Shown here piece by piece: positions 10,401 to 49,858 of a stretch of DNA of 64,000 nucleotides. Source of the stretch: Aurantiochytrium sp. KH105. Its lineage: Eukaryota > Sar > Bigyra > Thraustochytrida > Thraustochytriidae. Within the stretch, counting starts at the first letter, position 1. Each line of letters begins with the position of its first letter. Where the stretch lies: NCBI GenBank assembly GCA_003116975.1, contig BGKB01000158.1:107923-171922 (forward strand), given 5' to 3'. The notes beneath the pieces are model-generated. The model did not search any database and was not told the DNA's origin. It was given only the letters and a program-made list of their open reading frames with translations. The translations under genes were made by a program, and so were the position numbers.

Positions 10401-13400
10401 TTCTCCGGGCGTGAGATTGCGCAAAGAGAGCGACTTGCTTTGCCCCAAGGAACCGTTTCCGCGAAAGAAGCATGCGGACCTGTGCTTCGACGCGAAGCGC
10501 GGCATTGCGCTGGATCAAAAGCATGTGAGATGCGCGCCACATGCGCGCCATCGCCTGCAGTTGAATTGCTGCGTCCTGCGCCTGGTGCAAGTTATGAACA
10601 GCTGCGCATTTGCGTACCCATGATTGGATGCGCACCGTCGCTGTGCGAATGTAGAGGAACTGCGTGCGGATAACGTGCATGCGGAGAACGCTTTCGAGCT
10701 TGACTGCGGCCGTTGTCTGCTTTGCCAGAGCGTGACGTGCCGCCCAAGCCCGTGCGAGAGACTGAACCTTGACAATGCGACGCCGGGTGAGTGCGACTTG
10801 GCAGCAGGCACGATGGCGGCGCGCGAGAGATTGAACACGGGTAATGTCGCGAATCTGTGCGCGGCACATGGAACGAGCATGCGCACCTCGTACGGCTGCC
10901 TGGATAGCCGTCGCTGCTGTATGACGCACGGTCAGCTGCGAACGTACCTGGCATCCCCGCCATGCTGCCTGAATCTCGATAATGGATTCCCGAACGAAGC
11001 GATACATGCCGCGAATTCGGTCCTGACGAACACAAGCCTGAATTGTGATGGCTGCGCGGGTCATCTCCTGGTAGTGCGTCTGCGCGAGAGCCATGCGCAA
11101 AAAGGCTTGCACCTTGATGCAGGCATCTTCAGCTGCAGCGAAGCGTTTTCGTGCAAAATAAGCGCGCATTGCATTCTGCAAGACAATTGTCTTCTCCTGC
11201 AGCATCGTGTATCGGGTCATATGGTGACGCTGACGTGCCATGGCTTGCAGACGAATCGATGCAGAACGAATTTGCAACCACGATATTTCAGCGGCATGGC
11301 GGCGCCACACCGTTTGCAGACGAAGTGCCGCGCCTTGCATGCATCTCATCTGCCGACGTACTGCTACTCCACGCGAGAGAGCCTGCATTGCGATGGCGTG
11401 ATCTTTCAGCGTGAGGAAGCCGCGACGCACAAGGACGGATCCTCGAACAAAAGCTTGCATGTGCACAACAGCAATCTTGGAGCGTTGCTGCCAGCGCCGG
11501 TCCAGAAACCCGCGAACAAGCGACTGGATCGTCACCGCAGCGGACATCTCGTACAAGAGGTTCATACGCTGGTTGTGGCCGCGTACAAACGCCTGAATGG
11601 CGACCGCGGCAGTCTCCTTGGCGCGAAGGGTTCGCGTCCGAATGCAGGCCTGGTGACGCCGCACGACAGCCTGGACTTGCACAATCATGCTCAACACAGC
11701 GTTATAGATCTCGTACGTAGCACGGCAGCGGAAAAAGGCTTGCAAAGTGATTGCCGCATCGCGCAAATCACAATAGGCAAGACGCATCGGGTAGCCGCGC
11801 GCAAAGGCCTGCAGTTTGCGGGCCATGCGATCCTTGCGAAGAAATTGTCGCGCAAGCAGCCCCCTCGTGTACTTTTGAATGACGAGAGCAGCGTCCAGAG
11901 ACCTCTCTCCGAGTTCGCGCAGGTACCTGCCGCGGTAATGCTGGCGCCAAACGGCCTGGATCCGCGTCGCGGCAGCAATTTCATCGCGCGATACGAGCAA
12001 ACGTGACGAAAGATACGTGACAAAGAGAAGCATCATCTTCTCCTCGGGGACATTCTCGGTATCGAATTGGGGAAGGAGCACCGGGACGGATCCCAACGCG
12101 GTGGCGCACTCGTTGACGAGCTGAAAGTTTGCTCGCTCGTTTTCGAGGCTTCGACGGTACTCTGATCGCGGCATGTCCTGCACGTTGTGCACAGCCCAGT
12201 CGAGATCTGCAGCATAGCTTTCTGGGTGTCTTGCACGGCACACGTCGACGGTGGTCTCGCGAATGGACTCACGCGGAAGAAGACCCGGATGGTAGTGGTG
12301 GATGAGCAGGCAGAGCGCGCGGCCAGAGGCCATGGAGGTCGTAAAGTTGGCCACACGCATGCCATGATGCGCGCAGATGCTCTGGCACCAGCGCAATAGA
12401 ACGTCCATGGCGGCCTCCGTATGCTCAGTCTCTTGGTTTTCTTCTGCGGTGGCCTCTCCGCGCTGCGCCCGCACTTGCATCTTGTGATGTTTGGCGAGCT
12501 CCTCAGACTTGGCCATGATGCGGGAGGCGGTCTTTCCATGCATGGTACGCACGCGTGATGTCTCGTCACAAAGTGCTTCCTCTGGGAGGACGCCATCGAG
12601 CTTCCACTTGAGGATCATCTTCCACAGCAACGCAAGAGTCTTGCGCCTGTCGCCGTCGACAATGTCGCGGTTGCTGATCGTTTCCGGTTTGACGGGCATT
12701 TGCGCGCGCGCCAATCCGGCCGCCGTGTTGTGGGAAAATACCAGGCTTACGCCCTGGCGTTCGAGCTCCTTGAGGGCCACGTCCGTGTTGTGCAGCTTTT
12801 GCAGACGACTGACAGCCGGAGCGCGCATGAGCTCTGACAATGTGCGGTCTCTGTTGTCTGTGAGAAGCTCTACAGCACGCGAGAGCCGCAAGCCGTCGCG
12901 CAGATCGACAGCCAAATTTGTGACGCGAAAGTCAAACTCGTCGAGTTTGCGCTGTTCGTGGTGCAGCGTGTAGGCGCATGAGTTTTGAAGGTGTCGGAGG
13001 ACATTGCCCTCGCCCGCAAGAAACTCTTTGGCAAAGTTGATGAGCATGTCTGCAGAGGACTTGATCGGGGAGTCCACGCGAAAGAGGCAGCTTGGGTGAT
13101 CGATGAGGCTTGCCTGCTTGGCACGGTCCAGGAAGATGACAAGTTTGAGGAAGCGACGCAGGGTGCGCCGGCGCATCTCTTGCTTGTATTCGGGGTTTTC
13201 GTCAAAGAGTCCCTTCTTTGTCGCGCGGTACTCCTCGTCGAGCTCGGGGTCTCCGAGAAAGTATGTCGTCGCGAAACGCTTCATGGAGCGACGCGCCGCG
13301 TGGTGTTGGAGAGTGTGCCCTCCAAGGACGGTGTCGAGACCGATGCGCAGCCATGCATCTTGGTAGCAGAACAGCATGTCGAGCACCATGCGCCGCAGCC

Positions 13401-14580
13401 CGAGATCTTTGAACATGTCGCGATCAGCTCGAATGGAGATGCCTCCGCTCGCAATTTCGCGGTCGATTTGGAGGCTTGTGGCCTCCATCTCAGGGCTGTG
13501 CATGACTACAAAGGCACGTCGCTGCAACGCAGCGTGTCGCTGCTTGCGTGCAAGTTCTGCGAGCGCGAGCCGAGGCACCGCCTCGGTCTGCGCCTCTTCA
13601 CTGACATCGGACATTTCTGGGTCCATGACAAAGTTGAGCCATGCTGCAAAGCCCTTTTCTTGCTTTTCCATCCAGCGCTCGTCGTAGGACACCTGTCGCA
13701 TTTTCAGGTCCCGGTGACCAACATTGGTGAGCGTGGTCGACTTTTGTGCATTGGGCTGTCTCCGAAGGCGCAGCGAAGCAGCTGGGCGGGCAGACTGCGA
13801 TGTCGTTCGCGATTTTGAGCCGGTTAACGCCGGTTTGGACACATTTGCGTCACGGTCTGCGTTAGTTCTTGCGAGGGAGTTGTGTGGCCGATTTGCCTTG
13901 TCTGACACCCCGAGAGGCGCTTTGTTGACACCACGCGATGAGTTTTCTGTGCCCTTGAATCGGTGCAGAGGTTTCGGGCCGCCGCCGGTGCTTGCATGGC
14001 GCGCTGCCCTCGGTTTGCCTCCGAGGCGGAGTTTCTTATTGTCTGCTGTCTTGGCGACACCGCACACGAAAGCGCCAACGCGAATGCGGCGGCGCTGTGC
14101 GTTGAGGAGGCTGAAAGAAATGCTCTGACGCACACCGCCAGCGGATGCTGGCCGCCATGCAATCGAGCAGATCGCGGTGCTTTCGGGGGGGATCTCGTAT
14201 AGGGCTTCGCCGCCACTTGCATTGAGGATCTCGAAGCCGTTGCGCGTGCTAAAGCGTTCTGCACGGACGGCGACGAGCTCCGTGGCGTTATTCCGAAGCA
14301 CAAACTCGCCAACGTAGGGTTCCGCATCCGAAGACTCGAGAACGTTTCGCGAGCCGAAGTCGAGCATGGACTGTTGCTGCACGTTTTGCAGGACCACTTC
14401 CACGCGCGTGGGCTCGTTACCGGCAGCATGCTTTGACTCATCTTCGCCGCGAATGGCAATGTCAAAATTTTCTGGTTCCTCGTCCAGTCCGAACTCGCTT
14501 AGTTCCTGGCTCTCCTCATCCAAGACGCGCACCGCCGGTGGTGGTGTCCATTGGATTTCGAACGCTGTGCCTTTACTCAT
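7444..14580 (-). CDS. ASPM: ASPM (abnormal spindle) family protein
   Basis: The protein has 2378 residues in one exon. An N-terminal ASH-type beta-sandwich domain (about 1-175) is typical of centrosome and cilium proteins. A basic disordered stretch follows, then two calponin-homology-like regions (about 560-690 and 725-870). About fifty IQ motifs of ~23 residues (about 895-2120; recurring IQA, VQA and LQS cores followed by R) should bind calmodulin-type light chains. The C-terminal ~220 residues are helical and armadillo-like (around WLLESKNLGAIRNACETLQ). ASPM focuses microtubule minus ends at spindle poles, and its relatives are centrosome-associated. Human ASPM is longer, with more IQ units. 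Domain order matches the family, which rules out a myosin. The 5' side faces the GH47 gene divergently. Confidence 0.93.
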   Translation of the reverse strand: MSKGTAFEIQWTPPPAVRVLDEESQELSEFGLDEEPENFDIAIRGEDESKHAAGNEPTRVEVVLQNVQQQSMLDFGSRNVLESSDAEPYVGEFVLRNNATELVAVRAERFSTRNGFEILNASGGEALYEIPPESTAICSIAWRPASAGGVRQSISFSLLNAQRRRIRVGAFVCGVAKTADNKKLRLGGKPRAARHASTGGGPKPLHRFKGTENSSRGVNKAPLGVSDKANRPHNSLARTNADRDANVSKPALTGSKSRTTSQSARPAASLRLRRQPNAQKSTTLTNVGHRDLKMRQVSYDERWMEKQEKGFAAWLNFVMDPEMSDVSEEAQTEAVPRLALAELARKQRHAALQRRAFVVMHSPEMEATSLQIDREIASGGISIRADRDMFKDLGLRRMVLDMLFCYQDAWLRIGLDTVLGGHTLQHHAARRSMKRFATTYFLGDPELDEEYRATKKGLFDENPEYKQEMRRRTLRRFLKLVIFLDRAKQASLIDHPSCLFRVDSPIKSSADMLINFAKEFLAGEGNVLRHLQNSCAYTLHHEQRKLDEFDFRVTNLAVDLRDGLRLSRAVELLTDNRDRTLSELMRAPAVSRLQKLHNTDVALKELERQGVSLVFSHNTAAGLARAQMPVKPETISNRDIVDGDRRKTLALLWKMILKWKLDGVLPEEALCDETSRVRTMHGKTASRIMAKSEELAKHHKMQVRAQRGEATAEENQETEHTEAAMDVLLRWCQSICAHHGMRVANFTTSMASGRALCLLIHHYHPGLLPRESIRETTVDVCRARHPESYAADLDWAVHNVQDMPRSEYRRSLENERANFQLVNECATALGSVPVLLPQFDTENVPEEKMMLLFVTYLSSRLLVSRDEIAAATRIQAVWRQHYRGRYLRELGERSLDAALVIQKYTRGLLARQFLRKDRMARKLQAFARGYPMRLAYCDLRDAAITLQAFFRCRATYEIYNAVLSMIVQVQAVVRRHQACIRTRTLRAKETAAVAIQAFVRGHNQRMNLLYEMSAAVTIQSLVRGFLDRRWQQRSKIAVVHMQAFVRGSVLVRRGFLTLKDHAIAMQALSRGVAVRRQMRCMQGAALRLQTVWRRHAAEISWLQIRSASIRLQAMARQRHHMTRYTMLQEKTIVLQNAMRAYFARKRFAAAEDACIKVQAFLRMALAQTHYQEMTRAAITIQACVRQDRIRGMYRFVRESIIEIQAAWRGCQVRSQLTVRHTAATAIQAAVRGAHARSMCRAQIRDITRVQSLARRHRACCQVALTRRRIVKVQSLARAWAARHALAKQTTAAVKLESVLRMHVIRTQFLYIRTATVRIQSWVRKCAAVHNLHQAQDAAIQLQAMARMWRASHMLLIQRNAALRVEAQVRMLLSRKRFLGAKQVALFAQSHARRIQAQRAFDEKFAQVVQVQAGVRALLARKEFLTKRNAAIAVQSSVRAHQAQQHLLRARKVAIFCQSNARRHQTRRVCASKLAQIVQAQAAARTLLERKRFLRERKSIVTVQSLFRARVAQQTLLKAKRAAVFAQAHARRMNAQREFSAKVACVTKTQAFTRAALGRMQYLRTRAAVVKLQSIARTQQATRLAEQHRCAVLTIQSLARGICARSAADARRAAVVEVQAFARTVLARVCFLRTRAAVIKLQSVSRTQQATRLAQQHRCAIVTIQSFARGICARTAAKSRRVAILEVQAFARTALERMQFLRIRTAVIKLQSIARTQQATRLAEQHRYAIVTIQSLARGICARAAANSRRAAILKLQALARRVRAEEELRNAKLAAVTVQTAFRASQARSKLAVSRHAGTVIQAVARMWICQRELAEQRQACNKIQTAWRRHAAQQHFSRIRTSTVKIQAFFRAFEMREIWLVVRRSTVTVQSCARMWAEQSRYKMQRQSALQVQAAWRGRAVRKHIALQHACATRLQAWTRAVQATNAFRATVDKATLIQAAFRGASARNDLRLQHAAATKISSCGRMVVARMEFQRSLRQIIMAQAAVRRLQARVVSCKRRQAVVRIQSLWRRSLVLQRLAVERRAVVCLQALSRGAAARRQVAATRRAVVVMQSLGRMILARRVAMERQRAVVKTQAICRGWLVRESLRGFTRDITLAQSWVRMRQARRRFVSQRDAACKIQCFAKKYCLAHLAQMRGFCKLQAIYRGWKVRAARSKELARIQRRLAAARAKATDDMTLGARTKSALAWLLESKNLGAIRNACETLQVSTRYPTMAEAFLDSTASDVLFALVHSCNRSLPHMKLLEIALQILLQVAKQDRPRNYERLFANKEASASSILDLMQMFRDQVRIFAKALALLDYFCSDSSRAINYIVDNHELQRRLQQIEHILRRKCDINKQHRPGRPGPAQSERVKKEQLEVRQHAKLRRLLDELDEY
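9340..9960 (-). repeat. 207-bp higher-order repeats in the ASPM IQ array (three copies)
   Basis: The anchor gcaaatgccacgagcga (with small variants) starts at 9361, 9568 and 9775, exactly 207 bp apart. Each unit equals three 23-residue IQ motifs (69 residues) and carries the recurring words RTQQATRLA, QHR and ARGICAR. The copies are far more alike than the rest of the array, which indicates recent tandem duplication or gene conversion. Confidence 0.88.
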
Positions 14581-18876: not shown

Positions 18877-19502
18877 CCGACATCAACATCGACCTCATCC
18901 TATTTTTTTTCCATGACTTGCACGATTCTTGTACAGCAGCATTGCGTCTGCATACCGTCTGCATACTCTTGAGCAATGTATCTGCCAAAGCGATAGTAGG
19001 GAAGCCACTCTTTGTCGAAGTGGTCTCCCTCCTTCTTACTCCGCCCCTCCCTCTACCTTCCCCTTCCCCTTTACTCATCCCTTAAGAGGGTGCTTCCCAG
19101 GAGAGAAACCGCTGGATCAGCTAGCATTTGTTCTTGCCGGGTTTTGATGATGACTTGAGAAATGGCCGTTGGCGGCAATCCCAGCTGCCTGACCCAGCCT
19201 TATGTTACGAGGGCAAGTATTACGAAAGCGAGCAAACCGCGGAGGGGCCAGGTATAGCAGCGACGAGCCGCTTGCGGCGGGCTCGGGGCTTCGCAAAAGT
19301 GGAGCCTGGCGCGGGCTCGGCCGATTTGCGCTGCGGCGTTGTCGCCCTTCCTTACCGGACTTACGAGACGAGCTCGCTTGCTCGCTTGGCTTTGCTTTGT
19401 TTTGCTTTGCTTTGCTTGCTTGGGCCTCTATAACAGCGATTCCTGCTGCTTCTTCGCAAAAGACAGGAAGCCAGCCATCACGGGCACACGGGCGTGCGGA
19501 CA
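18877..19502. other. Intergenic region upstream of the dynein gene
   Basis: The 626-bp spacer has a CT-rich tract (about 19022-19078). A TTTGC/CTTTG repeat follows at 19390-19418 and a CTCTATAAC TATA-like sequence at about 19427-19434, some 70 bp before the dynein ATG. No gene was seen. It probably holds the rhodanese 3' end and the dynein promoter. Confidence 0.45.
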
Positions 19503-22500
19503 ATGATGGACGACGGCGAGTCTGCTGCAGCGGTAGCAGCCGAAATTCAACCTTGGTTGCTGGCGCAGGGCATTCTTGAAGGTGAAGCAAGTGAAGATGC
19601 CTTTCGCAAGGTCTGGAATGGCATGTGTAATTGGATGCTAGCCGTCTGTCGGGAACGCAGCTCCTTTATCATTCCCGATGTTGGCGTTGTCCAATTCAGA
19701 AAGTACAAGCTGGGGGCAGTTGTCCCGAGCTTTATTATGGCTTCTCAATACGCAGAAGTCAACGGTCTGCGTATCATCGCCAAGCTTCCGCGGGAGGAAG
19801 AGAGCGTCAATGCGCTACGTATTGATTTTCGGGCCGTTAATTGGCTCAATGATGACACCTACAAAGATTGCGTGGACACGATGCGCTTTGTTCTTCGTGG
19901 GGTCTTTCGCGGGTTTGGTGAGCTCGCATCGAAAAATCCGTCCCAAGTATTTGCCCTTGATATCGGCTGCGGCAAGCTTGTAGCTTTTGATCGTCAAATT
20001 CGACTGCAATTTTCGCCTGGCGGAGGGCTGCCTGGATCTTCTGCAGTCTTGGGAAAATTGCACGAGCCTCGACCTCCCTCTGCGACAGAGAACCCCGGCG
20101 GCGTAGAAGCGCGAAAGGTAGCCTCGCCTCGTGCAGCAAGAATCTCGTCACAAAAGCGAGCCATTGGAAGACACGACAGCGTCTCGTGCGTTTGGTTCCC
20201 CGATGGATCGTGCAAGGATCTCGCACTCGACTCGCAGAGCGTTGTGAGGCTCGAAAAACGTCAAGCAACCGTACGCAGAATGAGCCTCGGATCCGCTGAC
20301 TCGTTCAGCGGCCTCAACTCCGAGTATACATCCTCACCAAGCTGGCGAGGCAGTTCCAAGAGGCTCCTCACGGCACAGTACGCATCAATGAGCGCTCAAC
20401 GTTCTCCGCGTGCGCGGACGGAGGAAACCTCGCTGCGATTCATGCGTCGGGAAAAGAGCCTTCGGAGGCTCGCAGGGGATATTCGGGGTGAGCAAGCCCA
20501 TCCCTCGCTGCTCAACCAGCACGCACGCACCCTTGCTGCTGTACATGTCTCTCAAGACGAATCTGATCGCAAACTGCCCGATCGCATTGGGACCTACTAT
20601 TCACCAGAAGCACGTGTCCTGGCACTCGAGCGTCTGGCCTCCAGGAGCGCCGCAAAGGCTTCAAGCCGACATCAGCGTCAAGGAACAACGGACTCGTCAC
20701 CAACCTGCGATATGTTCTCGGGTCATCGCAAGGCTCCCACGCAAGATCGCGAAGATTTTCTCGCTGCTGTCACACTCGATGTACGGCGGGCTCAGGCCCT
20801 GGGCCAGGTTGATCGTGATCCTCTTGACATGCCAAATTATTCGCCGCGCGCTGTTCCTGAGCGTCGTGAGCCCTTTGATGTCGACTCCATCGCCCGCGAC
20901 GCTCACAGCGCGGCGCAGCGCCGAAATCTACGTCGATTCGGCAAAGGAATGACCTTTGTCGCCACGGAGAGTCTTCAGGCGCAACAAGCGGCAGTGCGAG
21001 CTACATACCTTCCTGCAGTGGACCAAGCTACAAGCCCAGAGGTCAACTCCCCTCAACAGGCCCCTTTCGCTTCGCGTTCAGGCACTCCGACCCGCACATA
21101 TCTCGGCACAGAGGAAGATATTGCACAGCAGTACGTGTGGTACGTTCGGCACGGTGTGGACGATAAGACGCTTGCTCCAATTCGGCGAGAGTGGCTTCAG
21201 CGCGTTTCCGATCTCCTTCCTGCGCCAAGGATTACCCATGAAAATGCTTCGAGTCTGGTGCAAACCTTTCAAACCCTCGTTGCGACCTTGACCAAAAATG
21301 TGGAATATGACTATCAATGCGCTGTGCGCCGCGCAATTCTCGACTATATTTTGAGAGACGCACAGCAGCGCTCTCGACTTGGAATTCCATATATTCCATC
21401 GAGCTGCCAGCGCAGGGATCCCGTTCATTTTCATGCAGATGCTCCACGGTACTGGAGAGAGACGTTTCAAGGCACACGTGAGCACATCAGGAGAAATCTC
21501 ACGCTCGTGAACCCCTTGATTCGCCAGGTGCTGCACTTGTGGCAAGACTATGCGCATCTCTCCTTGGTAAATTTGCCCTCAACCGATGACGAAGCTCTTC
21601 GATGCAGCTGGAAGCCGCCTACGCTCGAAGTCTTTGTTGAAGCTCAAGTTGAACACGCTCAAACTGTGCGAGACATTTTTCTGCATCAGTGGCACCCTGA
21701 AGTGGTTCGCATCTTTACGGAAGCTGCCAAAGGCGACGCGCCTCCTCTCGATACGCTTGGTGTTCGCCTCTGTGAAATGTCCCAGAACGATCTTCAGTCC
21801 CTTTTCGAGAGCGCCGCGACGCTCATGGCTCGCCAGCTGAGAGGCCTGGTCCTTGATTCACTCCAGCGACTACTATCATTCTTTCTGCGGCTTGGCCGTG
21901 GCGGACCTGACAAGGCGAGCAAACCACACCCGTACAAGTCTGAACTCACGGCGACACTTCGGAGCGCCTTCTACAACAAGCTTGTCGTGACTCGTGTTGA
22001 TAGTGGTGCAGACTCAACAACCCAGCCCCGGGCCGTGTGTCTCGAGGTGGACCTCGAGAAGATTGTCAATGGCCTCTCGCACGTAATCGACACAATCTCA
22101 ACATGTCTGAACCGAGTCGTACGTATTGAGCGCAAAGGCATTGGGCTCAATCTCGAATTCCTCGACGAGATTGACGAGAGCATGCCTCTCGTCAATACAA
22201 CAGAGGATCCGTCCACTGGCAGAAATGCAGGCCGAGGTCAGCCCAGTGGTACGAACGAGGGAAAGGGTGCAGAAGGAGGGCTTGCAACGGCACTGGCGCA
22301 GCAGAGCACATACGTGATGGACATCTCACCTTCCGAGGATTCCGTGTCCCGTTTTCGGCAGCGTATCGAGGACATTCTCATCGCAAGTAACGCCTCGTGC
22401 CAGACTGCAATTGCCATGTACGTGCCGTTCGAACCCATCTTCAACGCCTGGGACGCTCTCAACAGCAAGCTGCGACCCAGCACACGTCTTCAAGAACTGC

Positions 22501-25500
22501 AAGACGAGCTTGACGCGCTTGCGCAAATGCAGATGCGCGTTTGTGCAGAAACGAAGGAGACGGCCGTTCTCGGCGCGCAGACCATCGATTGTCAGGATCT
22601 CAACTCGCAAATTTTGGCCGAAATCGAGGCGCAGCGACAGCACCTGCTTCGCTTTGCCGTGCAAGACAACATTCGCCGCAATCTTGACGTCTGCAAGGCT
22701 TTCAGCGAGTCCGCCGAGCGTCTGGCCAAGGTCCCAGCGGACTCTCACGCGCTCATTGATGCTGAAGAGTACCTGCGCGGGTTTCAGAGCAAGGGGCTTG
22801 ACGCCCTCCTCGCGGATGTGGCCGACGTGAAGCACCGCCTCGATTTCATTTTTCGGAATCAAATGCAGGTTGAGGCAGATCTCCTCCGCCCTCTTGGCAT
22901 CACGTACTCGTGGGTCCACAAGGTGGACCATCTTGTGGAAGATGCTGCAGCGATGCTGAGGCGCGAGCGCGAACAGCTCGAAGGACAGTTCCAACTCGAC
23001 CGGGACCGTTTTATCCAAGAGCTTTCGTCTATTTCAAAGTCCGTCGCCAAGCTGAAGGATCAGGGTGATATGCGTCACGCCAAGGCACAATTGCGGGCCA
23101 CGGAGGAGGCACGTGATCTTGTTGAAGGTGCAAAACGGCGCGCAGACCTTTTGCACGACGAAGAAGATCGACTTGGACTCACAAGCACTGAATTTAAGGC
23201 GCTGACGCTTGTCGATGAGGCCCTCAAGCCATTCGAGACCTTTTGGAGCTTGGCCAACCGTTTTCAGACTCAGTTTCAACGTTGGAACCACGGTGTGGTC
23301 TTCACTCTCGATGGCGAACACGTCGAGCGGGAAGTAGGAGAGATGTTCCGCGCTGCGCACCAGCTAGCAGAAAGCCTCAAGGATGAGGCACCGGCGGTTG
23401 CCAGCTGCGCCGACGCGATCAAGGCCAAGTTGAACGAGTTTCGGGATGACATCCCCCTTCTTAGCATCATCTCTAATGATGGCCTTCGCGAGCGTCACTG
23501 GACGCAAATTTCCGACTTGCTTGGGTTCCCGATCGTTCCTGACGACAACATGACGCTGTCGCGTCTTATCGAACTCCAGGTCGGAGAACATGTGGAGGCC
23601 CTCGAGGCCATTTCCGAAGGTGCTTCCAAGGAACACGCCATTGAAAATGCGCACACCAAGATGATGGCAGAGTGGGCTCCGCTCGAATACGCAACACAGT
23701 CGTACAAGGACACAGGCACATTCATTCTTCAGGGCGGCAACCTCGACGAGCTGCAAACGCTGTTGGACGATCATCTGGTGAAAACGCAAACCATGCGGGG
23801 ATCGCCGTATTGCAAATTCATGGAAGAGAAAATGGCAGAATGGGAACACTTTCTTGTGTACACGCGGGACCTCATTGACGCCTGGATCAAGGTGCAGACA
23901 GCTTGGTTGTACCTTGACCCTATTTTTGCCTCGGAAGACATTATGCGGCAAATGCCAAACGAAGGCCAAGCTTTCCAACAGGTGAGCAAAATGTGGCGTG
24001 ATATCATGGACCTTGTCCACTCGGCGCCAAAGGTGACCTTTATTGCCAAGGTAGACCATCTTCTCGAGCAGTTCCACGAAATCGACGAGATGCTGGAGCA
24101 AATCAACAAGGGTCTAAGCTCGTACTTGGAGACCAAGCGACTGTATTTTTCACGCTTCTTTTTTCTTTCCAACGACGAGCTGCTCGAGATCCTCGCCGAA
24201 ACCAAGGACCCTACACGTGTGCAGCCGTTTCTGAAAAAGTGCTTCGAAGGCATCAAGTCGCTACGTTTCCGAAGTGACAATCAAGGCCGGCCTACGATCT
24301 CGCACATGATTAGCTCTGAGGGCGAGAGCGTCCAACTGACGCAGGAAATCGCTCCGCACGAAGCAAATGGGGCAGTCGAGGTCTGGCTTCTCCAACTCGA
24401 GGAAGAAATGTGTCGCACGGTCAAACACTTTGTCCGCGAGGCAATTGCGGACTACCCGACAAAGTCGCGAGGTCGCTGGATTCTGGATTGGGCTGGTCAG
24501 GTTGTTCTGGCGGTTGGGTCCGCATTCTGGACCCAAGAAGTGGAAACCGAACTTCGTGGGACCACGGGAGGGGGTCTTGCGGCCTACGAATCGCAACTGA
24601 GCGACCAGCTCTCCTCCCTCGTGACCTTGGTAAGAGGCGAACTCTCCAAGCTTGAGCGGGCCACGCTTTCTGCGCTCGCTGTCATCGACGTGCATGCGAG
24701 AGACGTCGTGAGACTTCTCGCCGAAGCGAGCGTGTCCTCGGTGCAAGACTTTGACTGGACCAGCCAACTTCGGTATTACTGGGAGAACGAGACGCTTGCT
24801 GTCAAGATCATCACTTCTTCGCTCGAGTATGGCTACGAATATTTGGGGAACAGTTCGCGTCTGGTCATCACGCCTCTCACGGACCGTTGCTATCGAACGC
24901 TGATGGGAGCTCTTCATCTGCAGTACGGTGGAGCGCCTGAAGGGCCTGCGGGAACGGGTAAGACGGAAACCGTAAAAGATTTAGCCAAGGCCTTGGCGCG
25001 ACAATGCGTAGTGTTCAACTGCTCCGACGGTCTCGACTACCTGGCGATGGCAAAGTTTTTCAAAGGACTTGCTTCAAGCGGTGCCTGGGCGTGCTTTGAT
25101 GAGTTCAATCGTATCGAGCTTGAAGTGCTGTCCGTCATTGCCCAGCAGATCTCAAGCATACAAGGCGCCATTGCGCGCCGCGCGCAGGTCTTTGAGTTCG
25201 AAGGAACAGAAATCAACTTGCGCTGGACAGCCAATGAATTTATTACCATGAATCCGGGCTACGCCGGAAGATCCGAACTTCCAGATAACCTCAAGGCCCT
25301 CTTTCGCACGGTCGCCATGATGGTCCCCGACTACGCCATGATTGCCGAAATCATCCTCTTTAGTTATGGGTACGCCGACTCGCGTAATCTTGCAAACAAA
25401 ATCGTCACAACCTACAAGCTTTGTAGCGAGCAGCTTTCCTCTCAAGACCATTACGATTATGGTATGCGCGCAGTTATTAGCGTGCTCAAGGCTGCAGGGG

Positions 25501-28500
25501 CGCTCAAGCGTCAGTTCCCCGATGAAGACGAGTCTATCATCGTGCTCCGGTCCATTTGCGATGTCAATCTTGCCAAGTTCATCTCGCAGGACCTTCCTCT
25601 GTTCAAAGGCATTATCTCGGACCTCTTTCCTGGAGTCGTCCTACCGGATCCAGACTATGTGCATCTCACCGCTGCAGCAGAAGAAGCGTGCGCAGCGGCT
25701 GATCTTGGTATTGAGCCTGTGCCGGTGTTTATGGAAAAGGTGATCCAGCTGTACGAAATGCTAGTCGTCCGTCATGGACTCATGATAGTGGGCGGCCCGC
25801 TTGCGGGCAAAACGATGAGCTGGAAGGTGCTTTCTCGCGCATTGACGACGCTTTGCGAACGTCAGCAAATGCCTTGCAAGCTCGCGGACCACGAGCTTGC
25901 CACTGACGTCTTTCAGATCAATCCTAAAGCTGTCACAATGCAACAGCTCTATGGTTGCTTTGACATGGTCTCTCACGAGTGGTCTGATGGTGTGCTGGCC
26001 AAGACCTTCCGCGACGCCTGCAAGGCTACAGACAACCGCCGCAAGTGGATCCTCTTTGACGGACCTGTTGATGCGGTGTGGATTGAGAATCTCAACACTG
26101 TTCTCGACGATAACAAGAAGCTCTGTCTCATGAGTGGCGAGATCATCGCCATGTCGGACTACATGAATATGGTTTTCGAGCCGATTGATCTCGCCGTGGC
26201 GTCCCCGGCGACAGTATCTCGTTGTGGAATGGTCTACATGGAACCAGAAAAGCTGGGATGGCGCCCGATGGTGGACGCCTGGCTGCGCCGTTTGCGTGAA
26301 AAGGTGGGCGACGAGGGTTGCGAAACGCTACGCGAGATTTTTGATTGGCTTGTTGCCCCGTCCCTGTACTTTTACCGCAAAAATGTTACGGAACTCGCCC
26401 CAACTTCGGACCTCATGCTCGTGCGTTCCATGACTCAGCTCATCGATACACTCGTCTACGATGTCCAAACGACTCCCGTTCCTGCGGATTGTCTCGAGCC
26501 TCTTACTGTCTTTGCCCTGGTATGGTCCGTGGGAGGCACGGCAAACAATGCCGGACGTGAAAGCTTTGACGCTTTTTTCCGCAGTCTGACCTCAGGTTCA
26601 AGCTCGGGTGCAGGGACTGGCGGCGCGCACGGCAAGGAAAGTCGCGCTCTCACTCAGACTTTGCCCAAGGAAGGTCTCGTGTACGACTACTTTGTGCAGG
26701 TCGACGAGTCGCGAGGGGTCTGTGACTGGAAACCGTGGACCTCAACGCTTGCACAAGAACCCGATTTCGCTAAAGACGCCGTGTACGCGTCCATCATTGT
26801 TCCAACCAAGGACACTGCTCGATATACGTACTTGCTGCGTCTGGCAGTGCAAGAGTCCCGTCCTCTACTCTTCGTTGGTCCCACTGGAACGGGCAAGTCA
26901 GCGTACACGTCGCAATACCTTCTCAATGACCTGGATCCGGAAGCGTACCAGATCCTTATGCTTGGATTCTCTGCGCAAACGTCTGTAACTCAGGTACAAG
27001 GGATTATCGACGCCAGTCTCGATCGACGTCGCAAGGGCGTTTTCGGTCCGTCGCTTGGACGCAAGTGCGTCATCTTTCTCGACGACGTAAACATGCCGCA
27101 GCCCGAGACCTACGGAGCACAGCCGCCGCTCGAGTTGCTGCGGCAAGGCATGAAGTATGGTGGCTGGTACGACTTCAAGGACCTAAGCTTTCGGCACATG
27201 GTGGACTGCTTTTACGTCGCAGCCATGGGCCCGCCTGGTGGGGGCCGTAACCACGTGTCACCTCGATTCTTGCGACACTTTCACATGGTTGGCGTGACCG
27301 AGTTTGACGAAGCGAGCATGTCGCGTATTTTTTCGAGTCTAATGCGATGGAACATGAAGTGTCATGGCTGCAGTGGAATTGGTATTCTACGAGCAGGCCA
27401 GGGCGCCGTGGATGCGACTATGGAAGTGTATCGTCGTAGTGTGCAGGAATTACTTCCTACACCATCGCGATCGCACTACCTTTTCAACTTGCGCGACGTA
27501 AGCCGCGTGATTCAAGGCATGACGCAATTTGTCTTGTCGGACGCAAGCACGCCGGAAGATATCGCGCGTCTTTGGGCGCATGAGACGCTTCGCGTCTTTG
27601 GAGACCGTCTCGTTGATGGTGTGGACCGTGACAAGCTTGTAGGGGAGATGATGAGCCCGGCCATGAAATCGCACTTTGGCAAGGACTTTGCGGAATCGTT
27701 TTCACACCTGGCGGACGAGTCCACAGGCATGGTTTCAGCATCGGGATCTTTTCGCGAAAGTGCCGCGAACTGGACCACGGCCCGCAGAGTCTTGTTTGGG
27801 AGTCTTAAATCGTCGGCGTACGAGCAAGTGGTCGATTTGGACGACTTGCGAGCGCTCTGTGAAGCCAAGCTTGAGGAATACAACACAATATCTCCCAAGC
27901 CCATGGACCTTGTTATGTTTTTGTACGCCATCGAACACACCGTGCGCATTTGCCGTGTCATTGGGACGCCGGGTGGCAATGCTCTTTTGGTGGGCGTGGG
28001 TGGATCGGGTCGCCAGTCTCTGACGCGCCTCGCAGCTTCGATGCGGGGCTACCAGGTGTTTCAGATTGAATTGAGTCGAAACTACGGTGTCACGGACTGG
28101 CATGCAGACCTGCGACGTGTTCTTGCTCTTGCAGGAGGCCGCGGTGAGGACACAGTCTTCCTCCTTAGTGACGCGCAGATCAAAGAGGAGTCCTTTGTGG
28201 AGGACATTAACAGCTTGCTCAACTCTGGCGAGGTTCCGAACATGCTGGCTGCAGATGAGAAAGCGGAGCTTTGCGAGCTTGCGCGAGCAGCCGCAAAGCA
28301 GGAGCGGCGCAGCGTGGAAACTCCAGAGGCTTTGTACGCATTCGTTGTTGAGCGTGTGCGCAGTCGACTGCACCTCGTCTTGGCTTTCAGTCCGATTGGA
28401 GAAGCTTTCCGTGCACGTATCCGGCGTTTCCCGTCCCTTGTGAACTGCTGTGTCATTGACTGGTTCAGCGAGTGGCCCCAAGACGCGCTCACATCTGTTG

Positions 28501-31500
28501 CAGAGCGTTTTCTGGACGATTTGGATCCAGGTGCTGACGAAATGCTCAAGGCGACGTGCGTGGCGCTTTGCAAAAAGTTCCACGTGAGCACAGCCAAGTA
28601 CGCAAAGCGCTTTATGCAAGAGCTGCGACGACCGTACTACGTGACTCCAACCTCGTACTTGGAGCTCATCAATACGTTCAAGACGATGTTATCAGTAAAA
28701 CGAAGCGAGGTGGAGCAGACGCTGAGGCGGTACGAGGTGGGTCTGGAGAAGTTGCAATTTACGGAAGACTCTGTTCAAGGAATGCAAAAAGAATTGCAAG
28801 ATCTGCAGCCCGTGCTTGTGCGGACAACGCGACAAACTGAGGAAATGATGGCCGCCGTGGAGAAAGAGCAAACGGAAGCAGACAAGATCGCCACCGTTGT
28901 CAAGAGCGAGGAAGCGATTGCCAATGAGAAGGCTCAGAGCGCCAAAGGTATCAAGGAGGAGTGTGAGGCGGATCTAGCCAAAGCCATGCCAGTTTTGGAG
29001 TCGGCAATCGCCGCGTTGAACACCCTGAGTAAGAGCGATATCACCGAAGTCAAATCGATGAAGTCCCCGCCAGATGGTGTCAAGCTCGTTATGGAAGCGT
29101 TGTGCATCATGATGAATGTAAAACCCATCAAAGCCAAGGACCCGAACGATGCTTCAAAAAAGATTAATGACTACTGGGAACCTGCCAAAAAGACGCTTCT
29201 TTCGGACCCGAAGTTGTTGAAGACGCTCATTGACTATGACAAGGACAACATTGATCCGAAAGTCGTACAGAAGGCGACGACTTACGTGGAGAACCCGGAC
29301 TTTGATCCGGAGAAAATCAAGAAAGCATCGCGGGCTGCATATGGACTATGCTGCTGGATCCGCGCCATGGTCCAGTACGACAGTGTGGCCAAGGTGGTAG
29401 CTCCGAAACGGGCCGCACTTGCGGAAGCCGAGCAAGAGTTCGAGCTTGTCATGGCCGGTTTGCGTGAGAAGCAGGCCGAATTGAGCAAAATCGAGAGTCG
29501 TGTTGCAGGTCTCGCGCGCCAGCTCGAGGAATGCAAGGAGCGAAAACGCGATCTCGAGCAACAGGTGAGTGACTGTACCGCCAAGCTCGACCGTGCCGAA
29601 AAGCTCATCTCTGGTTTGGGCGGGGAGAAAGCACGATGGGGCGAAGAAGCCGTGCGTCTTCGTGGCCTGCTCGGAAATCTAATCGGAAATGTCCTGGTGT
29701 GCTCTGGCATGATCGCGTACCTTGGACCCTTTACGGTGACGTTTCGACGCGAGATTACGGCAGCCTGGATCACAGAGGCCATTGCCATGCACATTCCATG
29801 CTCAAGCGCCGAGGAGATGAATCTCGTGCAAACATTGGGCGACAAGGTGAAAATTCGCGCATGGACGATTCAAGGTCTCCCTGTGGACGAGTATAGCATC
29901 GAGAACGGTATTATGCTCTCGAACTCACGTCGCTGGCCGCTCATGATCGACCCGCAGGGTCAAGCGAACAAGTGGGTGCGTAACATGGAGGCAGAGCACG
30001 AGCTCAAGGTCTGCAAGCTTAGCGATGCAAATTATCTCAGAACGATGGAGAACGCGGTGCAGTTTGGGCATCCTGTCTTACTCGAGAACATTGAAGAAAG
30101 CTTGCCGGCAGCGCTGGAGCCCCTTTTGCTGAAACAGGTCTTCAAAAAGGGCGGTGTTCCAAGCATTCGCCTTGGTGACGCCACAGTGGAGTACTCTGAA
30201 CGCTTTCGGTTCTACATGACAACGAAGCTGCGCAATCCGCACTATCTGCCGGAGATCAGCGTCAAGGTGACGCTTTTGAACTTTATGATTACACCGGTCG
30301 GGCTCGAGGACCAGATGCTTGGAATTGTGGTGGCGCGGGAGCGCCCCGATCTCGAGCGGGAGAAGAGCCAGCTCATCATAGAAACGTCCAAAAACCAGGA
30401 GATGCTTCGGGACATTGAAGACAAAATCCTCAAGGTGATGTCCTCCTCGGAAGGGAACATTCTCGATGACGCATCGGCCATTGAGGTTCTGAGCAAGTCT
30501 CAGACCGTCGCAAAGGAGATCTCTGTCAAGCAAGAGGTAGCAAACAAGACCTCAGCGCAGATTGACGCGGCGCGGCAGCATTATGTACCAATCGCGCGCC
30601 GGGCTGCAACCATGTTCTTTTGTTGCAGCGATCTCGCTTTTGTGGATCCCATGTATCAGTACTCGCTGACGTGGTTTGTAGATCTTTACGAGGCGAGCAT
30701 CGAAAAGTCTGAGCCGCAGGAACTGGTATCGCGTCGTCTCGAAGTCTTGGAGACGCACTTTACCGATTCCCTCTACAGGAATATTTGCCGCTCGCTCTTT
30801 GAGCGGGACAAGCTTTTATTTTCCTTCTTGCTATGCATGCGCCTGCATGCCGATGCAGTCCCCCCTTCGCTCTTTCGTTTCCTCGTTTCCGGGCCGGTGC
30901 GAGCTGGAAACGAGCCACCAGAGAATCCGTGCGCCCAATGGCTTCCAGACACGGCGTGGTCCGCCTTTGACCTGCTTTGCGAGGCGATGGAGGATGCAGG
31001 CGGAGACGACGCGCTACGTTCATCACTGTCCGGACAAGATCAGGCGGTCTGGGAAGCCTTTTATCAGAGTCCGCAACCAGAAGTGAAACCTGCGCTTCCG
31101 ACGCCATGGGAAGAGGATGGGCTTCTCAAGCTGTGCGTGCTGCGGAGCCTGCGCCCGGACCGCGTGGTCCCCGCAGTCCGTGACTACGTGGCAAAGACAA
31201 TGGGGCCGCGATTCGTGGAACCTCCGCGCTTTGACCTCGAGGCTTGCTGGCAGGACTCGCGACCTCACACGCCGCTCGTCTTTGTGCTGTCTCCTGGATC
31301 GGACCCGATGGCGGCGCTTTCGAAGCTTGCTGACCAGCGCGGTGTTCCCTTGGCTTCGCTTTCGCTGGGTCAGGGCCAAGGGGTCATTGCAGAGCGCATG
31401 ATTGACCGCGGAGTGGTTAAGGGCTCGTGGGTTGTCCTGCAGAACTGCCACTTGTATCCGAGCTGGATGCCCACGTTGGAGCAAATTGTCGAGCGACTCG

Positions 31501-33170
31501 GTCACACGTACTCGAACGCAGGTGTAGGAATCGGTGGCGGGGAAGCGGAAAGGCCCTCGGAGGACTTTCGACTGTGGCTCACCTCGTACCCTTCGGAGAA
31601 GATGCCGGTCGCAATCCTGCAGAGTGGCGTAAAGATGACAAACGAACCGCCGAAGGGTCTGCGCTCAAACCTTGTGCGCTCGTACTTTACCGATCCCATT
31701 TCGGATCCCGAGTTTTTTGAGACATGCGTATCATCGCGCGCACGCGAGTTCAAAAGACTTGTATTTGGTCTTTGCTTTTTCCATGCGGTGGTTCAGGAGC
31801 GCCGAAGCTTTGGCCCTCTCGGCTGGAATGTGCCGTATGGTTTTAATGAGGATGATCTTCGCATTTCCGTGCGGCATCTGCGCATGTTTGTAGAGGGCGA
31901 CGAAGAAGACGGGTCAAACTCCAATGATGGTCTGCCATTCAAGGCGCTAGTGTATACAATTGGAGCATGCAATTACGGAGGACGCGTCACGGATGACCAG
32001 GACCGACGCCTGTTGGATGCGCTGCTCAAGGCGTACATGAATCCGGATCTGGCCGAGACGGACAACTACGCCGTGTCTCCGTGCGGACTGTACAAGGTGC
32101 CTTCGCCAACGTCTCATGCTGCATATGTGGAGATTCTGCGTGATTTGCCCGCAGAGGCAGAACCGCAGGTGTTTGGGCTTCACGCGAACGCGGACATTAC
32201 TCGAGCGCAGCAGGAGACGCTCGAGCTGTTTCGTGCTGTGCAGGCGACGCAACCTCGAAGCCAGGCAGATGGCGGTGGTGACGGCGCGAGTGCCGAGCAC
32301 GTGGTGGAGGAGATGGCCGACTCAATTTTGGAAAAGCTGCCGGCTCGCTTTGACGTTGAAGCAGCACGCGTGAGGTTTCCGGTTCTTTACGAGGAGAGCA
32401 TGAACACGGTTTTGACCCAGGAGCTCGTCCGGTACAATGTGCTCACGGATGCGATTCGCGAGAGTTTGCTCGATTTGATCAAAGCGACGCAAGGACTAGT
32501 TGTCATGAGCGCAGAGCTGGAGAACATTTTTTATGCTCTTCTTGATGGGATCGTGCCGCAGCTCTGGATGTCTCGATCGTATCCGTCGTTGCGAGGTCTC
32601 ACGGGTTACATTGGTGATTTAGTCGATCGTCTAGCATTCTTCCAGCGATGGGTGGACGAGGGTACGCCGACGGTGTTTTGGATCTCGGGTATCTTCTTCA
32701 CGCAATCATTCAACACGGCTATTTTGCAAAATTTCGCGCGACGACACCAGCTTCCGATTGATACGATTGACTTTTCCTTTGTGATCGATGCCGATGCGTC
32801 GCTTGCAAGCGAGAAGGGTGATGGCGCTCTGGTGAATGGAATGTATCTTCAGGGCGGCATTTGGGACGCGGAGACTCACGCGATTGCGGAATGTCGGCCA
32901 AAGGAGTTGTACTCTGTGGCGCCGACGATTCATCTCTTGCCCGCGGTGACAATGGGTTCTGAGAGCGAAGAAGGGGATTTGAGCGAGGAGGCCAAGGTTT
33001 CCAAGTACGCTTGTCCGCTCTACCGCACCCCGGATCGTCGAGGAGTGCTTGCGACAACGGGGCGCAGCTCCAACTTTGTCATGATGGTGGATCTTCCTTG
33101 TGCCCCGGGCACCTCTCCGCATCACTGGATCATCCGTTCTGTTGCGCTTCTTCTCGAACCTCCGCGCTAG
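19503..33170 (+). CDS. Axonemal inner-arm dynein heavy chain with N-terminal HU (CCDC81-like) extension
   Basis: One exon encodes 4555 residues from the ATG at 19503. The motor is complete. Walker A loops are GPAGTGKT in AAA1 (about 1814), GGPLAGKT in AAA2 (about 2096), GPTGTGKS in AAA3 (about 2459) and GVGGSGRQ in AAA4 (about 2831; the R is normal for axonemal dyneins). The stalk coiled coil and microtubule-binding region lie at about 3060-3400 (KSPPDGVKLVMEA, YDKDNIDPK), followed by AAA5, AAA6 and a C-terminal domain. Wording best matches the single-headed DNAH3/7/12/6 group that drives flagellar beating. Residues about 30-170 resemble a tandem HU-domain pair of the CCDC81 type. A Ser/Arg-rich linker (about 170-530) joins it to the dynein tail. 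The usual length is about 4000-4200 residues. Confidence 0.95.
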   Translation: MMDDGESAAAVAAEIQPWLLAQGILEGEASEDAFRKVWNGMCNWMLAVCRERSSFIIPDVGVVQFRKYKLGAVVPSFIMASQYAEVNGLRIIAKLPREEESVNALRIDFRAVNWLNDDTYKDCVDTMRFVLRGVFRGFGELASKNPSQVFALDIGCGKLVAFDRQIRLQFSPGGGLPGSSAVLGKLHEPRPPSATENPGGVEARKVASPRAARISSQKRAIGRHDSVSCVWFPDGSCKDLALDSQSVVRLEKRQATVRRMSLGSADSFSGLNSEYTSSPSWRGSSKRLLTAQYASMSAQRSPRARTEETSLRFMRREKSLRRLAGDIRGEQAHPSLLNQHARTLAAVHVSQDESDRKLPDRIGTYYSPEARVLALERLASRSAAKASSRHQRQGTTDSSPTCDMFSGHRKAPTQDREDFLAAVTLDVRRAQALGQVDRDPLDMPNYSPRAVPERREPFDVDSIARDAHSAAQRRNLRRFGKGMTFVATESLQAQQAAVRATYLPAVDQATSPEVNSPQQAPFASRSGTPTRTYLGTEEDIAQQYVWYVRHGVDDKTLAPIRREWLQRVSDLLPAPRITHENASSLVQTFQTLVATLTKNVEYDYQCAVRRAILDYILRDAQQRSRLGIPYIPSSCQRRDPVHFHADAPRYWRETFQGTREHIRRNLTLVNPLIRQVLHLWQDYAHLSLVNLPSTDDEALRCSWKPPTLEVFVEAQVEHAQTVRDIFLHQWHPEVVRIFTEAAKGDAPPLDTLGVRLCEMSQNDLQSLFESAATLMARQLRGLVLDSLQRLLSFFLRLGRGGPDKASKPHPYKSELTATLRSAFYNKLVVTRVDSGADSTTQPRAVCLEVDLEKIVNGLSHVIDTISTCLNRVVRIERKGIGLNLEFLDEIDESMPLVNTTEDPSTGRNAGRGQPSGTNEGKGAEGGLATALAQQSTYVMDISPSEDSVSRFRQRIEDILIASNASCQTAIAMYVPFEPIFNAWDALNSKLRPSTRLQELQDELDALAQMQMRVCAETKETAVLGAQTIDCQDLNSQILAEIEAQRQHLLRFAVQDNIRRNLDVCKAFSESAERLAKVPADSHALIDAEEYLRGFQSKGLDALLADVADVKHRLDFIFRNQMQVEADLLRPLGITYSWVHKVDHLVEDAAAMLRREREQLEGQFQLDRDRFIQELSSISKSVAKLKDQGDMRHAKAQLRATEEARDLVEGAKRRADLLHDEEDRLGLTSTEFKALTLVDEALKPFETFWSLANRFQTQFQRWNHGVVFTLDGEHVEREVGEMFRAAHQLAESLKDEAPAVASCADAIKAKLNEFRDDIPLLSIISNDGLRERHWTQISDLLGFPIVPDDNMTLSRLIELQVGEHVEALEAISEGASKEHAIENAHTKMMAEWAPLEYATQSYKDTGTFILQGGNLDELQTLLDDHLVKTQTMRGSPYCKFMEEKMAEWEHFLVYTRDLIDAWIKVQTAWLYLDPIFASEDIMRQMPNEGQAFQQVSKMWRDIMDLVHSAPKVTFIAKVDHLLEQFHEIDEMLEQINKGLSSYLETKRLYFSRFFFLSNDELLEILAETKDPTRVQPFLKKCFEGIKSLRFRSDNQGRPTISHMISSEGESVQLTQEIAPHEANGAVEVWLLQLEEEMCRTVKHFVREAIADYPTKSRGRWILDWAGQVVLAVGSAFWTQEVETELRGTTGGGLAAYESQLSDQLSSLVTLVRGELSKLERATLSALAVIDVHARDVVRLLAEASVSSVQDFDWTSQLRYYWENETLAVKIITSSLEYGYEYLGNSSRLVITPLTDRCYRTLMGALHLQYGGAPEGPAGTGKTETVKDLAKALARQCVVFNCSDGLDYLAMAKFFKGLASSGAWACFDEFNRIELEVLSVIAQQISSIQGAIARRAQVFEFEGTEINLRWTANEFITMNPGYAGRSELPDNLKALFRTVAMMVPDYAMIAEIILFSYGYADSRNLANKIVTTYKLCSEQLSSQDHYDYGMRAVISVLKAAGALKRQFPDEDESIIVLRSICDVNLAKFISQDLPLFKGIISDLFPGVVLPDPDYVHLTAAAEEACAAADLGIEPVPVFMEKVIQLYEMLVVRHGLMIVGGPLAGKTMSWKVLSRALTTLCERQQMPCKLADHELATDVFQINPKAVTMQQLYGCFDMVSHEWSDGVLAKTFRDACKATDNRRKWILFDGPVDAVWIENLNTVLDDNKKLCLMSGEIIAMSDYMNMVFEPIDLAVASPATVSRCGMVYMEPEKLGWRPMVDAWLRRLREKVGDEGCETLREIFDWLVAPSLYFYRKNVTELAPTSDLMLVRSMTQLIDTLVYDVQTTPVPADCLEPLTVFALVWSVGGTANNAGRESFDAFFRSLTSGSSSGAGTGGAHGKESRALTQTLPKEGLVYDYFVQVDESRGVCDWKPWTSTLAQEPDFAKDAVYASIIVPTKDTARYTYLLRLAVQESRPLLFVGPTGTGKSAYTSQYLLNDLDPEAYQILMLGFSAQTSVTQVQGIIDASLDRRRKGVFGPSLGRKCVIFLDDVNMPQPETYGAQPPLELLRQGMKYGGWYDFKDLSFRHMVDCFYVAAMGPPGGGRNHVSPRFLRHFHMVGVTEFDEASMSRIFSSLMRWNMKCHGCSGIGILRAGQGAVDATMEVYRRSVQELLPTPSRSHYLFNLRDVSRVIQGMTQFVLSDASTPEDIARLWAHETLRVFGDRLVDGVDRDKLVGEMMSPAMKSHFGKDFAESFSHLADESTGMVSASGSFRESAANWTTARRVLFGSLKSSAYEQVVDLDDLRALCEAKLEEYNTISPKPMDLVMFLYAIEHTVRICRVIGTPGGNALLVGVGGSGRQSLTRLAASMRGYQVFQIELSRNYGVTDWHADLRRVLALAGGRGEDTVFLLSDAQIKEESFVEDINSLLNSGEVPNMLAADEKAELCELARAAAKQERRSVETPEALYAFVVERVRSRLHLVLAFSPIGEAFRARIRRFPSLVNCCVIDWFSEWPQDALTSVAERFLDDLDPGADEMLKATCVALCKKFHVSTAKYAKRFMQELRRPYYVTPTSYLELINTFKTMLSVKRSEVEQTLRRYEVGLEKLQFTEDSVQGMQKELQDLQPVLVRTTRQTEEMMAAVEKEQTEADKIATVVKSEEAIANEKAQSAKGIKEECEADLAKAMPVLESAIAALNTLSKSDITEVKSMKSPPDGVKLVMEALCIMMNVKPIKAKDPNDASKKINDYWEPAKKTLLSDPKLLKTLIDYDKDNIDPKVVQKATTYVENPDFDPEKIKKASRAAYGLCCWIRAMVQYDSVAKVVAPKRAALAEAEQEFELVMAGLREKQAELSKIESRVAGLARQLEECKERKRDLEQQVSDCTAKLDRAEKLISGLGGEKARWGEEAVRLRGLLGNLIGNVLVCSGMIAYLGPFTVTFRREITAAWITEAIAMHIPCSSAEEMNLVQTLGDKVKIRAWTIQGLPVDEYSIENGIMLSNSRRWPLMIDPQGQANKWVRNMEAEHELKVCKLSDANYLRTMENAVQFGHPVLLENIEESLPAALEPLLLKQVFKKGGVPSIRLGDATVEYSERFRFYMTTKLRNPHYLPEISVKVTLLNFMITPVGLEDQMLGIVVARERPDLEREKSQLIIETSKNQEMLRDIEDKILKVMSSSEGNILDDASAIEVLSKSQTVAKEISVKQEVANKTSAQIDAARQHYVPIARRAATMFFCCSDLAFVDPMYQYSLTWFVDLYEASIEKSEPQELVSRRLEVLETHFTDSLYRNICRSLFERDKLLFSFLLCMRLHADAVPPSLFRFLVSGPVRAGNEPPENPCAQWLPDTAWSAFDLLCEAMEDAGGDDALRSSLSGQDQAVWEAFYQSPQPEVKPALPTPWEEDGLLKLCVLRSLRPDRVVPAVRDYVAKTMGPRFVEPPRFDLEACWQDSRPHTPLVFVLSPGSDPMAALSKLADQRGVPLASLSLGQGQGVIAERMIDRGVVKGSWVVLQNCHLYPSWMPTLEQIVERLGHTYSNAGVGIGGGEAERPSEDFRLWLTSYPSEKMPVAILQSGVKMTNEPPKGLRSNLVRSYFTDPISDPEFFETCVSSRAREFKRLVFGLCFFHAVVQERRSFGPLGWNVPYGFNEDDLRISVRHLRMFVEGDEEDGSNSNDGLPFKALVYTIGACNYGGRVTDDQDRRLLDALLKAYMNPDLAETDNYAVSPCGLYKVPSPTSHAAYVEILRDLPAEAEPQVFGLHANADITRAQQETLELFRAVQATQPRSQADGGGDGASAEHVVEEMADSILEKLPARFDVEAARVRFPVLYEESMNTVLTQELVRYNVLTDAIRESLLDLIKATQGLVVMSAELENIFYALLDGIVPQLWMSRSYPSLRGLTGYIGDLVDRLAFFQRWVDEGTPTVFWISGIFFTQSFNTAILQNFARRHQLPIDTIDFSFVIDADASLASEKGDGALVNGMYLQGGIWDAETHAIAECRPKELYSVAPTIHLLPAVTMGSESEEGDLSEEAKVSKYACPLYRTPDRRGVLATTGRSSNFVMMVDLPCAPGTSPHHWIIRSVALLLEPPR

Positions 33171-49571: not shown

Positions 49572-49858
49572 AGCGCACACGCACACAGCTCGTCGTCTAC
49601 AAGCCAAGGTCGAATGTCATTGGTCAACCAGAGTACAGAGAAGCCAAAACTAGCATGTGATGACGGTAGTAGTAGGGCCTACCACCACTTGATGTGAATG
49701 CCGGGTCAGGCTGGCACCCGCCGCCGCCAGGCTCACCAACCAGCAAGACACGATGACGACTCGCGGAATAAAACACGGAACAATGAACATCGTAATGCAC
49801 AGTCACCTTTCTCAAAAATCAACAGCAGAGAGAGGAACGAGCTAGTCTTTGTTGGTTA

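Follow-up and report, generated by a model that had tools for sequence, protein, structure and literature searches.

A predicted CCDC81-type HU domain pair at the N-terminus of an inner-arm dynein heavy chain in Aurantiochytrium sp. KH105

An axonemal dynein heavy chain of Aurantiochytrium sp. KH105 appears to begin with a pair of domains of the type found in CCDC81, where HU domains were reportedly described by the founding paper. Is this pair a true part of the motor protein, encoded in one gene with it? And what might such an addition do in a flagellum? The locus was analysed in a stretch of 64,000 nucleotides, here called the window, which comes from contig BGKB01000158.1 of a 76-Mb assembly of 367 contigs (GCA_003116975.1). 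The features of the gene are collected in Table 1.

Table 1. Parts of the dynein gene, in window coordinates, with the basis of each assignment
Feature	Coordinates	Strand	Basis or remarks
Dynein gene, whole	19503..33170	+	Single open reading frame, 4555 aa; inner-arm dynein heavy chain with predicted HU-pair N-terminus
HU1, putative CCDC81-type, residues ~25-100, with IPDVG and PSFIMASQYAEVNGL	19575..19802	+	Sub-threshold PF14908; CCDC81 profile; hhalign
HU2, putative CCDC81-type, residues ~101-172, with DIGCGKLVAFDRQIRLQF	19803..20018	+	Sub-threshold PF18289; PDB best match; CCDC81 profile; hhalign
Linker, residues 173-539, Ser/Arg/Ala-rich, net charge +15	20019..21119	+	Composition; dN/dS 0.18; no haplotype indel
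First ordinary inner-arm tail block, residues 542-803	21126..21911	+	PDB phmmer: at E <= 0.01, 8 distinct sequences, each a dynein heavy chain by match
DHC_N2 region, residues 1237-1647	23211..24443	+	Pfam PF08393, E 1.7e-132
Motor (AAA modules, stalk, C-terminal domain), residues 1776-4551	24828..33155	+	Pfam; motifs

The window also carries other open reading frames on its minus strand. A 2378-aa ASPM-like protein with IQ motifs, CH domains and a sub-threshold ASH match is encoded near the dynein, at 7444-14580. The 1421-aa frame at 45342-49607 is an unusual combination, as it carries SCP2, FYVE, ABC1-kinase and beta-lactamase-like (PF00144) domains in series, and the 1974-aa frame at 49859-55783 has no Pfam matches at E <= 0.001. 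For the assembly as a whole, matches to the PUFA-synthase family TIGR02813 (best 930 bits, under the cut-off of that family; 11 of 14 control genomes match too, none above the cut-off), long uninterrupted genes and 18 dynein heavy chains would tentatively fit a thraustochytrid-like stramenopile.

The dynein frame follows a TAA stop at 19431-19433, is open from 19434, has its first ATG at 19503 and runs to a stop codon that ends at 33170. The second haplotype (contig G000:C84) carries the same 4555-aa fusion ORF, with 60 amino-acid substitutions and no indels over 13.7 kb; 370 of the 13,668 bases differ. Between the two haplotypes the HU pair (residues 25-172) is under purifying selection, with a dN/dS of 0.033 (nine synonymous changes, one non-synonymous). 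The linker has a value of 0.18, the tail one of 0.087 and residues 1237-4555 one of 0.040; residues 1-24 show a single difference, which is non-synonymous. Across its 1101 bases the linker is free of indels, unlike the DNA just outside the ORF, which has 10 per 1045 aligned bases (four upstream, six downstream). At the flanking rate ~10 indels would be expected in the linker, and by our own arithmetic the Poisson probability of seeing none is ~3e-5. Haplotype differences in residues 181-539 fall in excess at the third codon position (23 of 38). With a frame that is constrained on both haplotypes, the HU pair and the dynein constitute a real single-gene fusion. One uninterrupted reading frame from 19503 on had been proposed in the initial annotation, together with a Ser/Arg-rich linker of ~360 residues; the 4555-aa ORF without an in-frame stop bears out the former, and the latter has 367 residues, of which 45 are Ser, 45 Arg and 44 Ala. 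Every one of the motifs quoted there is present in the translation.

The linker is presumably disordered. Its second half has a dN/dS of 0.31 between the haplotypes and an atypical codon usage, the coding frame scoring -0.33 bit per codon versus 0.08 for the +1 frame. This weak codon signal fits a disordered, Ser/Arg-rich stretch, and is the weakest part of the one-gene argument.

What kind of dynein is it? Pfam finds a complete motor (AAA_6, AAA_7, AAA_8, AAA_9, MT, Dynein_heavy, DHC_N2 and Dynein_C), and P-loop-like motifs are present at residues 1814 (GPAGTGKT, AAA1), 2097, 2459 and 2831. DHC_N1 (PF08385) is not among the 23 Pfam families found at E <= 10 with the whole protein; we take this family to be the dimerisation region, and its absence to be a trait of single-headed inner-arm chains. 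Single-headed inner-arm heavy chains bind actin with p28 or centrin, and dock singly. Among the best 60 of 87 PDB sequences, the highest score is that of DNAH7 (8j07, presumably the human protein) with 3814 bits, followed by DNAH3 with 3630, DNAH12 with at most 3541, DNAH1 with at most 3079 and DNAH6 with at most 2604 bits. In a phmmer search of the PDB, the tail by itself (residue 540 onwards) matches DNAH3 (E 4.9e-21), DNAH7 (3.5e-18) and DNAH12 (4.6e-6). Its eight distinct sequences at E <= 0.01 are one DNAH3, two DNAH7, two DNAH12, an 8glv chain, an IDAa chain and a 9fqr chain. The PDB matches of the whole chain and of the tail therefore assign the protein to the inner-arm heavy chains of the DNAH3/7/12 group, the class predicted initially. 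In the human nomenclature given by Walton et al. (2023, PMC10266980), IDAa is DNAH12, IDAc is DNAH3, and IDAb and IDAe are DNAH7. As a separate observation on the PDB, chain Xx of 9fqr is a 4069-residue dynein heavy chain that bears the name 'putative malate dehydrogenase 1B', which misfits its sequence.

The tail block from residue 542, the DHC_N2 region, the AAA modules, the stalk and the C-terminal domain are held in common with DNAH3, DNAH7 and the DNAH3/7/12 group as a whole. Residues 542-803 are homologous to residues 232-472 of DNAH3 and, from residue 543, to DNAH7 from residue 163. DNAH3 and DNAH7 thus have ~310-380 fewer residues N-terminal to the shared block, and the surplus of the present dynein includes the HU pair.

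How good is the case for HU domains? With residues 1-186 as query, the sole two Pfam families at E <= 10 are PF14908 (HU-CCDC81_euk_1; residues 27-68, 14.5 bits, E 0.038) and PF18289 (HU-CCDC81_euk_2; residues 126-171, 17.2 bits, E 0.0052), in the order found in CCDC81; both scores lie below the gathering cut-off of 26.1 bits for these families. The matches weaken with longer queries, to E 0.18 for PF14908 and 0.091 for PF18289 with the 539-residue extension, and with the whole 4555-aa protein neither is among the 23 families at E <= 10. The pair is divergent, and because its scores stay under the cut-off the dynein is not filed as a member of the CCDC81 family. Genome searches with PF14908 and PF18289 likewise list two other HU-pair proteins of the organism (paralogs A and B, described below), and the dynein is absent from the matches. 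As a single query against the genome, the window pair finds its own two haplotypes only at E <= 10, with A and B absent.

An independent profile was made from six CCDC81 HU pairs, namely paralogs A and B and four PDB fragments, with the window sequence excluded; the four fragments had been aligned beforehand by a profile that contained the window pair, so that their choice was not wholly blind. The window pair scores 22.8 bits with this profile (E 2.8e-5 in 5267 sequences) and matches model positions 2-148 of 148. The other haplotype scores 25.1 bits, and the best of 5000 shuffles 12.7. An hhalign comparison of the six pairs with the window pair and its allele gives a probability of 93.5% over 144 columns, with an E of 2.3e-7 for that single comparison. 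BLASTP of paralog A against the dynein pair gives E 1e-4 over 175 columns, and that of paralog B an E of 0.64, which is not significant; identity in the alignment is 27% to A and 17% to B. When the window pair is searched by phmmer against 177,635 PDB sequences, the CCDC81 chain 9e78 comes first with E 1.1, not significant by itself, followed by two aminopeptidases at E 1.4. At E <= 10, a profile of the window pair, its allele, A and B matches five sequences of the PDB, of which four are CCDC81 chains (E 1.4e-8, 0.0054, 0.018 and 0.051) and one is a bacterial HU (0.34), with no dynein among them. Paralogs A and B drive part of these matches, so this last profile is not independent for the window pair. 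Taken together, the profile comparisons establish homology to the CCDC81 HU pairs at the level of sequence, and the tandem CCDC81-type pair that had been proposed for the N-terminus is borne out by the Pfam order, the six-pair profile and hhalign. In a separate search for a viral-contig relative of the pair, 14 pattern matches were obtained and none was confirmed.

A structural check of residues 1-180, suggested in the initial annotation alongside a profile search, had a mixed outcome: the profile match is present, where its lack would have counted against the proposal, and a confident HU structure was not obtained. AlphaFold gave a mean pLDDT of 46.0 and a pTM of 0.42 for residues 1-186 alone, and of 37.4 and 0.27 for residues 1-180 with a four-sequence alignment, all poor values. 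The low-confidence models show two helices and strands, a long helix at 117-144 and a hairpin, an order that roughly suggests two HU-like units. Both models carry no weight. Foldseek with the first of them returned 110 PDB matches at E <= 10 and none at 0.001; the top six are tRNA-splicing endonuclease (TSEN) entries, and no HU protein is among the best 50 of the 110. This outcome is counted as uninformative and not as evidence against HU. Might the pair bind DNA? HU/IHF DNA-binding proteins have a long, basic DNA-binding beta-arm. Only short strand connections are seen in the low-confidence models, and the net charge of the pair is +2; DNA binding seems unlikely.

What role could the pair then have at the end of a dynein tail? 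What localises single-headed inner arms to specific axonemal substructures is their divergent N termini, as stated by Walton et al. (2023, PMC10266980). Two reports place CCDC81 relatives of Tetrahymena at the inner junction of the cilium (PMC10105768, PMC11961760), where IJ34, called a CCDC81 homolog, is said to stabilise CFAP52 (PMC10105768), and a further report has a CCDC81-relative signal marking proximal tomograms (PMC12399478). Given that N termini place such arms and that CCDC81 relatives sit at the Tetrahymena inner junction, the HU pair would most likely be an added, protein-binding docking module of the dynein tail, and it probably helps to hold the motor at a single site of the flagellum. 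The pair would bind a protein that sits on the doublet microtubule or inside it; the arm would through this binding become fixed at one 96-nm repeat site or on a subset of doublets, and the flexible linker would let the motor step without straining the HU anchor. The joint reading, a single-gene fusion in which a long flexible linker bears the HU pair and the pair serves as an additional docking module, is the one preferred here, and is regarded as reasonably probable. A natural addition of this kind also offers a ready-made test of the idea that the N-terminus places the inner arm, as put forward by Walton et al. (PMC10266980); the added pair is one known from another ciliary protein family.

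Where would the module dock? The location of the Tetrahymena CCDC81 relatives at the axonemal inner junction makes the axoneme appear a likelier site than the centrosome, and PDB entries 9y6s and 9e5c contain a CCDC81 chain together with axonemal dynein chains. CCDC81 had been tied at the outset to both centrosomes and cilia; in view of the Tetrahymena reports and these two entries, the emphasis should move from centrosome and basal body towards the axoneme. A more specific proposal, possible but on the whole doubtful, is that the pair inserts at the A-B inner junction and flexibly tethers the inner arm to a microtubule-inner-protein site, possibly on proximal or special doublets only. Should this be true, the motor would be covalently wired to the inner scaffold of the doublet.

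Could the pair, instead of anchoring the dynein in the finished axoneme, direct it to the basal body, the centrosome, or a partner in transport or assembly? A table in a review has mammalian HOOK1 interacting with CCDC81 and ODF2 (PMC8471410), which would suit such a role. The inner-junction location of the Tetrahymena relatives (PMC10105768 and PMC11961760), the pairing of CCDC81 chains with axonemal dyneins in 9y6s and 9e5c, and the placing of single-headed inner arms by their N termini, as stated in PMC10266980, all point the other way, and targeting of this kind is judged unlikely.

Could the likeness to HU have arisen by chance, in a fast-evolving and mostly disordered N-terminal extension? 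The sub-threshold Pfam scores, the poor structure models and the failure of the PF14908 and PF18289 genome searches to find the dynein might be read in this way, as might the N-termini of the other dyneins in the genome, which differ among themselves. A genome search with the dynein D6 family gives at least 40 matches, counted as 36 places; these fall into 18 pairs, the two members lying on separate contigs and scoring alike or almost so, as would be expected of a diploid assembly. For 17 dyneins besides the present one the N-termini were compared (18 sequences of 878-1773 residues, one dynein being present twice). As wholes they reach at most 1.6 bits with the six-pair CCDC81 profile, and 13 of the 18 are listed at all; cut into 180-residue pieces, they score no higher than 4.8 bits, the dynein on C59 set apart, whose N-terminus taken whole has no HU match with the profile. 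The dynein on C39, the nearest of four whose C-terminal motor parts were compared (50% identical), has ~218 residues before its aligned tail block and no HU match. Chance is opposed by these low scores and, for the present dynein, by the match of both HU models in order and alone in Pfam for residues 1-186, a full-length profile match that beats 5000 of 5000 shuffles, the 93.5% of hhalign and the low dN/dS of the pair; a chance resemblance is considered very improbable.

Least probable of all is the thought that a short gene upstream encodes the HU pair and that transcription of the dynein starts near 21000: several in-frame Met codons do lie 3' of the pair (residues 260, 296, 314, 404, 443 and 483), three weaker GTRNGT donors occur at 20186, 21131 and 21140, and the second half of the linker has a weak codon signal, but the DNA, checked for just such a split, has no in-frame stop in between, no GTRAGT donor and no AATAAA or ATTAAA poly(A) signal in a motif scan of 19503-21700, no haplotype indel in the linker, and the excess of third-position differences in residues 181-539.

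The single-gene fusion is not the only use of an HU pair in this genome. Paralog A (C44, second haplotype C141; L009:1384-3084) is a 567-aa protein whose HU pair is all that Pfam matches in it at E <= 0.05, and is probably the organism's ordinary CCDC81. Paralog B (C164, second haplotype C229; L019:475-4560), of ~1362 aa, carries several calcyphosin-like EF-hand modules after its HU pair; in the PDB the EF-hand part matches a calcyphosin-like protein (E 1.9e-44) and DMIP21 (E 3e-25), and the 1535-aa CCDC81B of Tetrahymena may be its counterpart. Both paralogs resemble the dynein in having the pair near the N-terminus, but unlike it they score over the Pfam cut-off and are not motors. As the pair is also fused to EF-hands in paralog B, it has been joined to different partners within one genome, and the dynein fusion points to the CCDC81 HU pair as a docking unit that can be moved between proteins.

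How does the construct compare with known systems? No publication was found on HU domains in CCDC81, on HU domains in a dynein heavy chain, or on a thraustochytrid dynein heavy chain, in a search that lay outside most subscription journals and so gives weak evidence of novelty. The chains used for comparison with CCDC81 (8snb_1K, 8v3l_A, which is CCDC81B, 9e78_0A and 9e2g_2N) come, we presume, from sea urchin, Tetrahymena and trypanosomatids. Like the CCDC81 family, the dynein has its two HU domains in tandem and in the family's order, over ~145 residues; it differs in the heavy chain that follows the pair, and in HU sequences that are divergent and under the Pfam cut-off. A precedent for a lineage-specific extra domain in the tail of an axonemal dynein is the outer-arm alpha heavy chain of Chlamydomonas, which is described in PMC10266980 as having Kelch-like propellers in its tail, although both the fold and the class of dynein are different there.
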